DNA from: an uncultured Erysipelotrichaceae bacterium
GTDB lineage: Bacteria > Bacillota_I > Bacilli_A > RFN20 > CAG-826
Assembly (NCBI GenBank): GCA_902797795.1
Contig: CADBUF010000046.1
Coordinates: 1-42,158, forward strand
Direction of reading: 5' to 3'
DNA: 42,158 nt
Shown: positions 2,822-7,547 of the stretch, in pieces
How positions within the stretch are numbered: the stretch's first letter is position 1
Layout: each line of letters opens with the position of its first letter
Notes under the pieces: model-generated
What the model was told of the DNA's origin: nothing
Seen by the model: the letters and a program-made list of their open reading frames with translations, nothing else
The model's database searches: none
Translations under genes and position numbers: made by a program

Positions 2822-2846
2822 GAAAAAATCACCTTTTCAGGCGATT
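2822..2846 (-). terminator. Rho-independent terminator after hemW
   Basis: Minus-strand hairpin AATCGCC / GGTGATT (one G-U pair) with a six-base loop, followed by a run of T. The stem includes the last codons and stop of hemW. It separates the hemW operon from the heat-shock promoter. Confidence 0.8.
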
Positions 2847-3940
2847 AAATCAAGAGTAATTTTATCAAGAATCATCATCCCTTCAAAGGTCGGAATGAGA
2901 TGATTTTTAACTATTTTTAGGTGACCGCTATCAATGTATCCGTCAATTATTTGCTGCTTCTCTTTATATAAATCTTTTTTAAATAATCGGTGATATTTTT
3001 CTAAATCAAGTCCTTCAATCGTTCTTAAATTCAACATGATTTGATAGATTTCTAAATCTTTTAATTTCACCACTTCTTTTTCTTGCGCGTTTGTTCCTTT
3101 TAAATACATAGATAAGTTAGTTGTATTCTTATAACGCACGTCATTTACGTAACCTGAAGCACCTAGTCCAACACCATAATAAGGCTCATTTCTCCAATAT
3201 GTTAAGTTGTGAAGGCTTTCTTTATTTGGTTTGCACCAATTCGATACTTCGTAGTGTATAAATCCTTCTTTTTTAAGTAGGGAGTCCACTATCCTATAAG
3301 CTTCGTAGGAGAATTCATCGCTTGGAGGAGTGATCTTGTTTATATGAAATACAGTGTGTTCATGCACTGTTAAAGAATAGCAAGAAACATGGGTTGGATT
3401 TAAAGATAAGATATTTAGAATATCTTTTTGAAGCATTTTAATCGAGACATTAGGGAGTCCAAGCATTAAGTCAAAGTTAATATTATTAATTCCATTTAAT
3501 TCAAGTAACTCTTTAGCTTTTTTAACATCAGAAAAAGTGTGATGGCGATTAATGTCTTTAAGGATTCTATCATCTGTTGATTCCACACCTATTGACACTC
3601 TATTGACCCCATATTCTTTCATCATCTTAATTTTATTAACAGATAATGACTCTGGATTTGCTTCAATCGTATATTCTTTAGCTTTTTTTGAATATGGGTC
3701 CACTATTTGAAGCAGTTTCAAAAACAAGTCATCTTCTAACGATGTTGGTGTTCCTCCACCGATATAGATGGTTAATAAATCATGATTTGTTACTGTCTCA
3801 GTTAATTCTTTTTCTAAAGCCTCTAGATAAGTAGAAGCGATATTACGAAAATACTGCAACTTAGTAAAGTCACAGTAATCGCATATTGATTCACAAAAAG
3901 GGATGTGGATATATAAAGAATTTATATTATTCTTCGTCAT
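2837..3940 (-). CDS. hemW: Radical SAM protein HemW (heme chaperone / coproporphyrinogen-oxidase-like)
   Basis: Radical SAM enzyme of the HemN/HemW family, 367 residues. The [4Fe-4S] motif CxxxCxxC is at C16, C20, C23 followed by DF. HemN has a fourth Cys there, so HemW is preferred. Other motifs: GGGTPTSL, IEANPESL, RVSIGVES, and the C-terminal HemW-type segment around NYWRNEPYYGVGLGASGYV. HemW homologues bind heme and are thought to deliver it rather than decarboxylate coproporphyrinogen; no other heme gene is in the window. Its ATG overlaps the end of the preceding small membrane-protein gene by 14 nt. hemW next to hrcA is a classic Firmicutes neighbourhood. Confidence 0.92.
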   Translation of the reverse strand: MTKNNINSLYIHIPFCESICDYCDFTKLQYFRNIASTYLEALEKELTETVTNHDLLTIYIGGGTPTSLEDDLFLKLLQIVDPYSKKAKEYTIEANPESLSVNKIKMMKEYGVNRVSIGVESTDDRILKDINRHHTFSDVKKAKELLELNGINNINFDLMLGLPNVSIKMLQKDILNILSLNPTHVSCYSLTVHEHTVFHINKITPPSDEFSYEAYRIVDSLLKKEGFIHYEVSNWCKPNKESLHNLTYWRNEPYYGVGLGASGYVNDVRYKNTTNLSMYLKGTNAQEKEVVKLKDLEIYQIMLNLRTIEGLDLEKYHRLFKKDLYKEKQQIIDGYIDSGHLKIVKNHLIPTFEGMMILDKITLDLIA

Positions 3941-4148
3941 CCTTATATTGTTCTACCTTTTTAGCTACTTCTTCATCTTCAATTGGTTTTAAATAACGTT
4001 CCAATTCTTCATGAACAATTTGCTCTTCTGTTGGTTTGTCATCACGTCTTAAACGTGGTTTCAAATATAGATAGATTAAGAAGGCTATTAAAGCAATCGC
4101 AACCACGACACCAAGAACAACAAGGAAGATAATTAATCCATCAGACAT
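3927..4148 (-). CDS. Small single-pass membrane protein, unknown
   Basis: 73 residues: a short N-terminal segment, one strong hydrophobic helix (about residues 5-28), a basic stop-transfer stretch (KPRLRR), then a charged, mostly acidic cytoplasmic tail (about 37-73). The positive residues after the helix predict the tail inside the cell. No family recognised. It lies 10 nt after the Fic-like gene and overlaps hemW by 14 nt, so the three are probably one operon. The tail contains EEQIVHEELER (residues 41-51), resembling EEIVHEEER in the neighbouring Fic-like protein. Real gene because of tight packing, length and the typical membrane-anchor layout. Confidence 0.72.
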   Translation of the reverse strand: MSDGLIIFLVVLGVVVAIALIAFLIYLYLKPRLRRDDKPTEEQIVHEELERYLKPIEDEEVAKKVEQYKDDEE

Positions 4149-4158
4149 AATACATTTC

Positions 4159-5640
4159 TCACTTTCTATCTACAGGTGTGTAGACAAACTTTTTACCAGC
4201 TTTCATTTTCTTATAATAACCATATTCTACAAGTTTTTCCATAGAAGTTCTTGCAGTTTCATAAACACATTTAGTGGCTTTCTTGTATTGTTCTAATGTA
4301 TAGAACATTCCAAGAGTGCAATGTCTAGCGTAGAAATACGCTTGATCTTTTTTTAACCTAACATCTAGTTCTAATAGATGTCTTTCAAGTCTAGCTGCTG
4401 TCTTTTCATCGAGTTCAGGAGGAATATAAGAGACCGCTAAACCCAAAGGTTTTTCTTCAATTTTAACTTCTTCAACCTGTGGTTTTGGTTTTTCCTCTAC
4501 TACTGGAGCAGGAGCGGGAACTTCTCTAATAATCTCACGAATTACTTCTTTAACTACGACCGGTTCACTAGAAGGGGCTTTTTCAACTTTTTGCTCGCTA
4601 ATTCTCTCTTCTTCATGAACTATTTCTTCTTTGATTGGTTCATCGATTTGAGGTTCATCTAACTGAAAGAAATCATTTTTAATGATTTGCGTTGAATATT
4701 CTGCAACGCTATCAAGCATTCTATCAATCAAACGATCAAAACCATCAAGAGCAAATGTTAAGAAATAAGTTAAGTCAGAAGTCATTTGTACTTCATAAAA
4801 TTTCTTATTCATCTCTACCGCATTTTCATTGAGCAAAGATTCTAATGGTAAATATGCAGCAAATTCATTTAAACGTTCATGAGCGAGCACGCTCTTAGCA
4901 AATAAAGCCGCTATTTCATCGTTATAATCCTTAAATGGCTTAACAAATTCTATATAATAGAATGTCACAAGCGCCTTATTAAGCGGGCTTAGATTACTTT
5001 TTGCAATAAAAGCGAAAAGGTTATCCATCATTTGTTGTACCAAAACATGAGGAGCGCTCTTATAGACGCGGGCAACAAGGCTATGATTTATTGAATCGTC
5101 AATATCAAAATCTCTATAAAAATAGGTTAATTCTTGATTCCCACTCACTAAGCTATAAAGTTCTGCTAAAAAATCCATATCAAGAGCGTTAACATATTTA
5201 CTTTCAATAAATTTAAGTGCATCTAAATAGTTGGAGAGGTCACTAACATTTCGATTTCCATGAATTATAGAACGAATATTCTCTTCATCACTGACTAGAT
5301 TCTTTTTAACCGCAATGTTTTGTAAACATTTAATGTAATTTGACATCTCAAAATATTGAGCGTCACCATTTACTCTATCTAATTTACGATACTCGTCTAA
5401 AAGACGAATTAACTTAGTTTCTGAATTATTAGCTTTGTTTGCGATTGTTGGACATAAACAAATTCTAAGTGGGTTCTTATCGATTCCTTTTAAGGTAAGA
5501 TAATGATAAAAGGATGAACGATAAGATAAAATCTTATCCCACACACCATCAATCACAGAAATTTTAAGTTCTTTGCTAACTTCATTTTTGGTTGCGTAAT
5601 AGTTTTCGGTAAAACGCATCGCGAGATCATTATTTGACAT
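4159..5640 (-). CDS. Fic-fold protein with degenerate active site, linker and C-terminal winged helix
   Basis: 493 residues. Residues about 100-310 follow the Fic/DOC fold: an N(x)LDALKFIE-type helix, TYFYRDFDID where active proteins have G.YR, YKSAPHVLVQQMMDNLFAF, then TFYYIEFVKPFKDYNDEIAALF at 226-247, written here only to show the alignment with the Fic signature HPFxDGNGRxxR. The catalytic His is Lys234, the GNGR portion is Y-N-D-E, and the last Arg is Ala245; PF and Asp238 remain. The following SDLTYFLTFALDGF matches the Fic C-terminal helix. Residues about 325-400 are an acidic, Pro-rich linker. Residues about 400-493 look like the winged helix often following Fic domains. AMPylation is unlikely; a binding or DNA-linked role is inference. 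First gene of the operon with a membrane protein and hemW, between lepA and hrcA. Confidence 0.62.
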   Translation of the reverse strand: MSNNDLAMRFTENYYATKNEVSKELKISVIDGVWDKILSYRSSFYHYLTLKGIDKNPLRICLCPTIANKANNSETKLIRLLDEYRKLDRVNGDAQYFEMSNYIKCLQNIAVKKNLVSDEENIRSIIHGNRNVSDLSNYLDALKFIESKYVNALDMDFLAELYSLVSGNQELTYFYRDFDIDDSINHSLVARVYKSAPHVLVQQMMDNLFAFIAKSNLSPLNKALVTFYYIEFVKPFKDYNDEIAALFAKSVLAHERLNEFAAYLPLESLLNENAVEMNKKFYEVQMTSDLTYFLTFALDGFDRLIDRMLDSVAEYSTQIIKNDFFQLDEPQIDEPIKEEIVHEEERISEQKVEKAPSSEPVVVKEVIREIIREVPAPAPVVEEKPKPQVEEVKIEEKPLGLAVSYIPPELDEKTAARLERHLLELDVRLKKDQAYFYARHCTLGMFYTLEQYKKATKCVYETARTSMEKLVEYGYYKKMKAGKKFVYTPVDRK

Positions 5641-5661: not shown

Positions 5662-5690
5662 ATTATATTTCACTATAACTTGTTTTACAA
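5662..5690 (-). promoter_or_regulatory. Promoter of the Fic-like/membrane protein/hemW operon
   Basis: Minus strand -35 TTGTAA (5690-5685), 17 bp spacer, -10 TATAAT (5667-5662). The ATG at 5640 is 21 nt after the -10 and is preceded by an AGAGGT ribosome site. Confidence 0.7.
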
Positions 5691-5732
5691 GAGACAAACC
5701 AAAAAACTACTAATTTATTACCAATTTATTTA

Positions 5733-7547
5733 CTATTCTTCTTCGTCGTCTATAGATAATATAGACATGAATGCTTCTTGTGGAACTTCAACAGAGCCAA
5801 CCTTTTTCATGCGCTTCTTTCCTTCTTTTTGTTTTTCAAGAAGCTTCTTCTTACGTGAAATATCACCGCCATAACATTTGGCTAAGACATCTTTTCTTAC
5901 TGCTTTAACGTCAACTCTAGCAATGATTTTTCCACCAATTGCGGCCTGAATAGGAATTTCAAATTGTTGACGAGGAATAACTGTTTTTATTCTGCGAATA
6001 ATTCCTAGTCCTCTATTATATGCATGTGGACGATAGACAATACTACTTAAAGCATCAACCACTGTGCCATTAAGCATAACATCCATCTTAATTAAATCGT
6101 TTGGTCGATATGAAGATGGTTCATAATCAAAAGAAGCATATCCTTTGGTAAAGCTTTTTAATTTATCAAAGAAATTGTACACAATTTCAGATAAAGGCAT
6201 ATCATAAACAAGAATCATCCTTGTATCATCGAAATATTGAAGATCTAAATAGATTCCTCTTTTATCTTGGCAGAGTTCCATAATTGGACCAACATATTCT
6301 TTTGGAGTCATGATACTCGCCTTAACATATGGTTCTTCAATTGATTTGATTCTTGATGAATCTGGAAGTTTAGAAGGGTTATCAATAGACAACATTTCCC
6401 CACTAGTGAGATATACATGATAGATAACAGATGGGGCAGTAAGAATAAGATCAATGTTATATTCCCTTTCAAGTCTTTCTTGAATGACATCCATGTGTAA
6501 AAGGCCTAAGAAACCGCATCTAAAACCAAAGCCTAAAGCTTGAGATGTTTCAGGAACAAACTGCAAAGAAGCGTCGTTTAGAGATAACTTCTCTAAGGCC
6601 TCTTTTAAGTCTTGATAATCATCACTATCGACTGGATATAATCCACAATAAACCATTGGGTTTATGTCACGATATCCAGGGAGAGCGTGTTTTGCAGGAT
6701 TATCAAATAACGTTACCGTGTCACCAGGACGGACATCTTTGATGTCTTTAATCTGAGCACATACATAACCAACTTGTCCACATTTAAGTTCTTTCAACTT
6801 AATTTCATCAGGGGTTCTAATCCCAAGTTCGGTTACAACATAGTCTTTATTTGATTGCATCAATTTGATGTGATCTCCAACCGCGACTTTGCCTTCTTTA
6901 ATACGAACCATGATGACTACACCACGATATGAATCGTAAAAGCTATCAAAGATAAGTGCTTGTAAAGGAGATGATTCCTCACCACTAGGAGCAGGGATGT
7001 TTTTAACAATAGCTTCTAATAACTCATGGACATGGAAACCAGTTTTAGCAGAAACTTCTACTGCTTCTGTTGCTGGGATACCAATGCGCTTTTCGATTTC
7101 CTCGCGCGCCCATTCAGGCATTGCGCTAGGCAAATCAACTTTGTTGATTACAGGAAGAATCTCTAAGTTGTTATCAATGGCTAAATAGACATTTGCTAAT
7201 GTTTGAGCCTCTACTCCTTGAGTAGCGTCCACAACCAAAACTGCTCCTTCGCACGCTGCGAGGGAACGCGACACTTCATAAGTGAAGTCGACATGCCCCG
7301 GGGTGTCGATTAAGTTAAAAATATAAGTGTGTCCATCATCGCTTTTGTAGGATAATGTAACTGCGTTTAGTTTAATGGTAATTCCTCTCTCTCTTTCAAG
7401 ATCCATAGAATCAAGAATTTGATCCTTCATTTCTCTTTCAGAGATGGCGCCTGTCAATTCTAAAATACGATCCGCAAGTGTGCTCTTGCCATGATCGATA
7501 TGGGCAATGATTGAGAAGTTACGAGTGTATATTTGTTCGAAATCCAT
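5733..7547 (-). CDS. lepA: Elongation factor 4 (LepA), back-translocating GTPase
   Basis: Ribosome-binding translational GTPase related to EF-G. 604 residues, as usual for the family. Motifs: G1 AHIDHGKST (15-23), switch I RERGITIK (52-59), G3 DTPGH (81-85), G4 NKVD (135-138), and the LepA-specific C-terminal domain with [15 protein letters not shown] and a Lys/Arg-rich end ([23 protein letters not shown] region). The start at 7547 matches the family N-terminus ([11 protein letters not shown] follows directly), yet no Shine-Dalgarno sequence precedes it. A perfect TATAAT lies 11 nt upstream, so the mRNA may have almost no leader. It starts 26 nt after the helicase gene but probably has its own promoter. 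Confidence 0.97.

Follow-up and report, generated by a model that had tools for sequence, protein, structure and literature searches.

To our knowledge, a terminus-binding system is known in only a few bacterial groups. In the MatP-matS system, several non-polar sites, each of them a palindrome, are spread around dif. RTP of Bacillus subtilis is a winged-helix protein. RTP and, in E. coli, Tus have sites at the terminus, and for each of the two proteins the gene's own promoter also contains a ter site (PMC10331603). Among proteins with a Fic fold, CbFic2 (8cil) binds DNA via its C-terminal winged helix-turn-helix (PMC10628234), and BepC and AvrB use the fold without standard catalysis (PMC7842960). 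A terminus role for a Fic-fold protein was not found in the open-access literature searched, a result that does not prove absence.

The gene described here, X, was found in the window, which is the whole stretch of 42,158 nucleotides that was analysed. We estimate a probability of roughly 0.6 that, as sequence and predicted structure suggest, X encodes a Fic pseudoenzyme that binds sites at the replication terminus and marks or organises this region. CbFic2 and SoFic (3eqx) resemble X in combining a Fic core with a winged helix at the C-terminus, but both keep the catalytic Fic motif and are AMP transferases, whereas X has lost the motif and is tied to arrays of short repeats at the terminus. 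BepC and AvrB differ in being host-targeted effectors, and BepC keeps both the histidine and the GNGR loop; X, in contrast, is encoded at a fixed chromosomal locus and has a predicted DNA-binding domain.

X lies at 4159..5640 on the minus strand, as do all window features given below, and encodes 493 amino acids; it was defined from the open reading frame call, homologues, an AlphaFold2 model and structure search. Residues 1-62 (5455..5640) form three helices and a beta hairpin that are tentatively helix-turn-helix-like; searched alone, this domain gave weak HTH matches only, with Z at most 3.4, and it is kept in the f25 and f32 relatives too. Residues 63-325 (4666..5454) make up a Fic core predicted with high confidence, residues 326-411 (4408..4665) an acidic, proline-rich linker that is disordered for the most part, and residues 412-493 (4162..4407) a C-terminal winged helix whose recognition helix, YETARTSM, is near-invariant among homologues. 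The AlphaFold2 model, built from 60 sequences, had a mean pLDDT of 84.7; most of the Fic core scored above 90, a loop around residue 185 being the exception. Fic proteins ranked first both with Foldseek (E about 1e-7) and with VIA-align (8cil, Z 25.0; 3eqx, Z 24.6; 4rgl, Z 24.4). The 3eqx alignment covered 272 residues at an rmsd of 3.8, and that of 8cil covered 321 residues at an rmsd of 11.3, spread across the linker-joined domains. Sequence comparison required a profile for the same result to become clear. The single X sequence fell below the Pfam Fic threshold (E=0.0035; 18.6 bits against a curated cut-off of 24), 44 of 60 relatives matched that model at E up to 1, and a PDB search with the single sequence returned 4rgl at E=1e-6; a 60-sequence profile gave clear Fic matches, with 4rgl at 3e-12 and 8cil at 1.5e-8. 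A Pfam scan of X up to E=10 returned Fic and Penicillinase_R only, with no homology to Tus, RTP or MatP.

These results bear out much of the first-pass annotation, which had proposed a Fic-fold pseudoenzyme (predicted fold with Z about 25, lysine in place of the catalytic histidine, no GNGR loop) with a C-terminal winged helix (residues 429-491, which resemble the CadC and Z-alpha domains at Z 9.4-9.6) and an acidic, proline-rich linker of about 80 residues (residues 324-406: 83 amino acids, 10 prolines, net charge -10). Three other leads were set aside. The NCBIfam model for the MG284/MPN403 C-terminus matched weakly in 2 of 60 relatives and was dropped because a genome search showed that family to be a different small protein and because the weak match sits in the helix before the linker. 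Matches to the homing endonuclease I-OnuI appeared in the single-sequence PDB search only and were gone with the profile, and matches of the profile to MICAL1 (E about 0.002) were read as helical similarity.

At residues 234-243 (4912..4941) X has K-P-F-K-D-Y-N-D-E-I in place of the H-P-F-x-D-G-N-G-R of active Fic proteins. Neither the catalytic histidine nor an intact Fic motif occurs in any of 113 X homologues: the histidine position is occupied by K in 86, R in 18, Q in 4, V in 3, Y in 1 and E in 1, and the GNGR loop has become mostly [YFH]-[NS]-[ED]-E. The replacements are themselves conserved (K/R-P-F, N/S-E/D-E and K249), and P235 is invariant in the alignment. Invariant residues are concentrated in the winged helix, especially in YETARTSM, and the core is also conserved. 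X belongs with Fic proteins by fold but, lacking the defining catalytic motif, is not classed here as a Fic enzyme, and AMP or phosphate transfer is predicted to be absent. Nor does it look like a Fic toxin-antitoxin module, given the lost motif and its position among lepA, a membrane protein gene and hemW. The hosts belong to uncultured Bacilli and are mainly MAGs from gut and rumen that bear the label Erysipelotrichaceae, Bacillales or Bacilli, and 50 of the 59 relatives searched match the X protein, a few of these matches being other Fic proteins. At one locus (L016, G017:C12) X is split near the C-terminus and the winged helix runs on in another frame, through a frameshift or an assembly error.

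X is preceded by lepA (5733..7547) and followed after 10 bp by a gene for a 73-aa single-helix membrane protein (3927..4148), which overlaps the start of hemW (2837..3940) by 14 bp. Nearly every one of the 80 loci with enough contig to show it keeps the order dinG-lepA-X-membrane gene-hemW-hrcA, and in most other sampled families of the class lepA and hemW are adjacent without X, so the placement described in the first-pass annotation stands. With the histidine missing from 113 of 113 homologues and the gene order held, X is a conserved family and not an isolated decayed copy. The first-pass annotation had further suggested a membrane-linked binder of DNA or RNA. Homologues of the membrane gene lie between lepA and hemW in four genomes that lack X (G039, G041, G045 and G046; loci L204, L205, L206 and L210), and for this reason the gene was rejected as a dedicated partner or tether and a membrane link of X is unsupported; nothing pointed to RNA. 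The DNA part of the suggestion fared better and has independent evidence in phased TTRGTA arrays at the promoter of X and at dif, which are consistent with DNA binding. Neither these cis-sites nor a connection to the terminus appeared in the first-pass annotation; both are new here and lie outside the span that it described.

X is preceded in the window by an array of three 11-bp phased units, TTGGTA/TTAGTA/TTGGTT (5697..5724; 28 bp), and arrays of this type also flank dif in another part of the genome. Six bp separate the array from the -35 of a promoter-like sequence, TTGTAA-N17-TATAAT (5662..5690), assigned to X by its similarity to the consensus. A palindrome, CTTGTAAAACAAG, lies over this -35 (5679..5691); 15 of 75 relatives share the type, and among relatives the outer bases are preserved and the middle varies (CTTGTTTTACAAG). 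In most loci the DNA between lepA and X is 70-140 bp long and bears T[TC][AG]GT units at 11-bp spacing. Pairs of units at exactly 11 bp numbered 74 in 76 lepA-X sequences against 0.22 expected from shuffles, 50 of the 76 sequences have two or three units in register under the strict pattern, and over 1.55 Mb of loci the triple pattern matched 77 times against 0 in the reversed sequence. Arrays upstream of X were seen in families f1, f2, f3, f5 and f32.

The same triple pattern was found in 30 of 41 genomes searched, far above a reversed-pattern control, and whole-genome strict triples sit near X and dif. Clustering at dif was judged from these pattern searches together with individual contigs. 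On a 251-kb contig of G007, from the same genus as the window, all six triple sites fall within 43 kb (147,968-190,641) and none elsewhere on the contig; dif (ACTTCGCATAATGTTTATTATGTTAACT) lies at 159,600, a point at which the GC skew changes sign from plus to minus and genes converge. In the window's own genome dif is at 25,887 on contig C71, with array sites at 14,285-43,934. As in G007 and the window's own genome, array sites cluster around dif, at the GC-skew flip, in G001, G006, G010 and G014, and this extends beyond the genus, to G024 from another genus, to G043 from family f3 (sites within 1.5 kb of dif) and to G038 from family f5 (sites across 34 kb). Of the 21 sites that the strict pattern finds in G001, G006, G007, G010 and G014, 20 are inside the dif cluster, and the corresponding binomial probability of about 2e-26 treats as independent sites that are syntenic and therefore non-independent. 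In the complete genome G285 (g41; 1,062 kb), dif is at 719 kb, X at 677 kb and dnaA at 204 kb; one good array only was found there, at dif, and the recognition helix is unchanged. The array sites are mostly intergenic, within operons near a stop codon or at convergent ends, and one is inside ispH. Their orientation around dif is mixed and non-polar: in G007 a minus site at -11.6 kb and a plus site at -0.1 kb are followed by minus, plus and three further minus sites.

Many genomes with X have, in the interval from dif to the array, elements like TTATCCACA or TTTTCCACA (near 159.5 kb on G007:C1 and near 25.8 kb on G000:C71), which look like DnaA boxes yet sit at the terminus. A replication origin at the array cluster, thinkable from the TTATCCACA elements, was rejected on three grounds: the skew at that place turns from plus to minus, a dif is found there, and dnaA is located elsewhere.

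The presence of X coincides with that of an array beside dif. Within the order, all 16 genomes with X and a readable flank have an array no more than 200 bp from dif, usually 130-170 bp from its start and on what we take, from the layout of E. coli dif, to be the XerD side, while none of nine genomes without X has one; the absence of X was confirmed in these with a winged-helix profile. The Fisher p of 5e-7 for this contrast is inflated because the split largely follows phylogeny, the families without X (f4, f6 and f8) falling outside the X-bearing clade in a lepA tree, and most of the contrast may be one event. The only clear independent co-loss is in G045, which is nested in f5 among relatives with X and from which X and arrays are both gone. 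An array in front of X was found neither in G285 nor in G058, which has arrays at dif.

Two further groups of relatives bear on the history of X. Six genomes of family f25, in the same class, have a relative of 282-311 aa that, compared by sequence only, keeps both ends and has little Fic core left. It directly follows lepA in five of them (in the sixth, lepA was unseen on the stretch examined), and hemW is within one gene downstream in all six. In five (L139, L140, L141, L143 and L144) an extra gene of about 220-270 aa lies between X and hemW, and all three of these genes that were tested have a Spo0A C-terminal domain. In f25, X is preceded by TTTGTCGAA-like boxes, which we take to resemble the Spo0A box; no arrays were found upstream of the short X, nor at dif in the f25 genomes (0 of 5). 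The second is G395 of family f32, a distant 648-kb genome using code 4, in which a 409-aa relative follows lepA and the motif position reads IIFEEGND. An array, TTAGTATTAAATTAGTA, stands in front of X, about 36 kb from the skew flip, and a clear dif was not found on the stretches examined. One other perfect copy occurs in the genome, upstream of rsmH; this site (L363, G395:C1:522906) is between rpmF and rsmH, upstream of a likely division and cell wall cluster. X probably arose before the f25, G395 and main lineages split, or moved between them.

It is quite likely, from the company that X and the arrays keep, that X itself binds the arrays. X would then be a Fic pseudoenzyme turned DNA-binding scaffold, in which TTRGTA units are recognised by the winged helix, perhaps aided by the helical domain at the N-terminus. 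A spacing of 11 bp is one helical turn and would place several X domains on one face of the DNA. The array in X's own promoter probably serves autoregulation, and those at and around dif, about 1.5 kb to 40 kb either side, would allow X to mark or organise the terminus or to assist events at dif. Against this reading speak the short f25 relatives, which lack arrays, G285 of g41, which has few arrays despite its unchanged recognition helix, and G058, with none in front of X. Such a system would resemble RTP-Ter and Tus-ter in where its sites lie, namely the terminus and the promoter of the gene for the binding protein; the RTP and Tus sites, however, are polar and of other sequence, whereas the arrays are phased direct repeats in mixed orientation. 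As in MatP-matS, several non-polar sites are spread around dif and confined to the terminus region; unlike matS, the arrays are built of an 11-bp direct repeat, one of them is fixed beside dif, and X is without MatP homology.

Other explanations have to be weighed against a terminus-binding X. The winged helix and the site just upstream of a promoter-like sequence would suit an ordinary transcription regulator of its own gene, the remaining arrays being a regulon that happens to be near the terminus. Autoregulation alone was rejected as a full explanation once arrays appeared around dif, and a regulon is rather unlikely: the other sites are near stop codons, at convergent ends and inside ispH, not mainly at promoters, and they keep to a region of about 43 kb around dif, with one always beside it. 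A structural or positional role is favoured because the sites are not promoter-bound as a rule. It is also conceivable, if unlikely, that another DNA-binding protein recognises the arrays and that X is one of its targets. The indirect route by which X is linked to the arrays leaves room for this, as do the f25 genomes with a short X and no arrays at dif, but genomes without X also lack the arrays, the loss in G045 being one such case, an array stands in front of X even in the distant G395, and the winged helix of X is conserved. A replication fork trap of the RTP/Tus type, stopping forks leaving the terminus, would agree with the location of the sites and with RTP being likewise a winged-helix protein. 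The site in the promoter of X recalls that of Tus and RTP (PMC10331603); a polar trap is nevertheless disfavoured, and we regard it as quite improbable, because the orientation of the arrays around dif is mixed.

The Fic core itself invites two further readings. AvrB is a Fic-fold protein without the motif (PMC7842960), and the old motif of X has been replaced by conserved residues rather than noise, as might be expected if X retained an enzymatic activity of a different chemistry. The f25 relatives, however, have lost most of the core and kept both ends, so the core is dispensable in that lineage, and there is little likelihood of such an activity. That X is a decaying former toxin without function might be thought of because Fic proteins are often parts of toxin-antitoxin systems and the motif is lost; conservation of full-length X across dozens of genera, at a fixed locus and with many invariant residues, makes this extremely improbable.

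In summary, X is most readily seen as a terminus-binding Fic pseudoenzyme, and we know of no system of the same composition. In a bolder form of this proposal, which is tentative and has somewhat less than an even chance of being right, a dead Fic scaffold would coat 11-bp iterons around dif and constitute a terminus system with no relation to Tus, RTP or MatP, one that ties the handling of the terminus (resolving dimers at dif, terminus cohesion, or positioning at the division site) to its own expression and replaces the known systems in a lineage of uncultured Bacilli. If X does bind the arrays, it would represent an independent, non-homologous solution to terminus binding and a case in which the fold of a post-translational-modification enzyme has been re-used as chromosome architecture, and it would suggest a testable function for other motif-broken Fic-fold proteins with winged helices.
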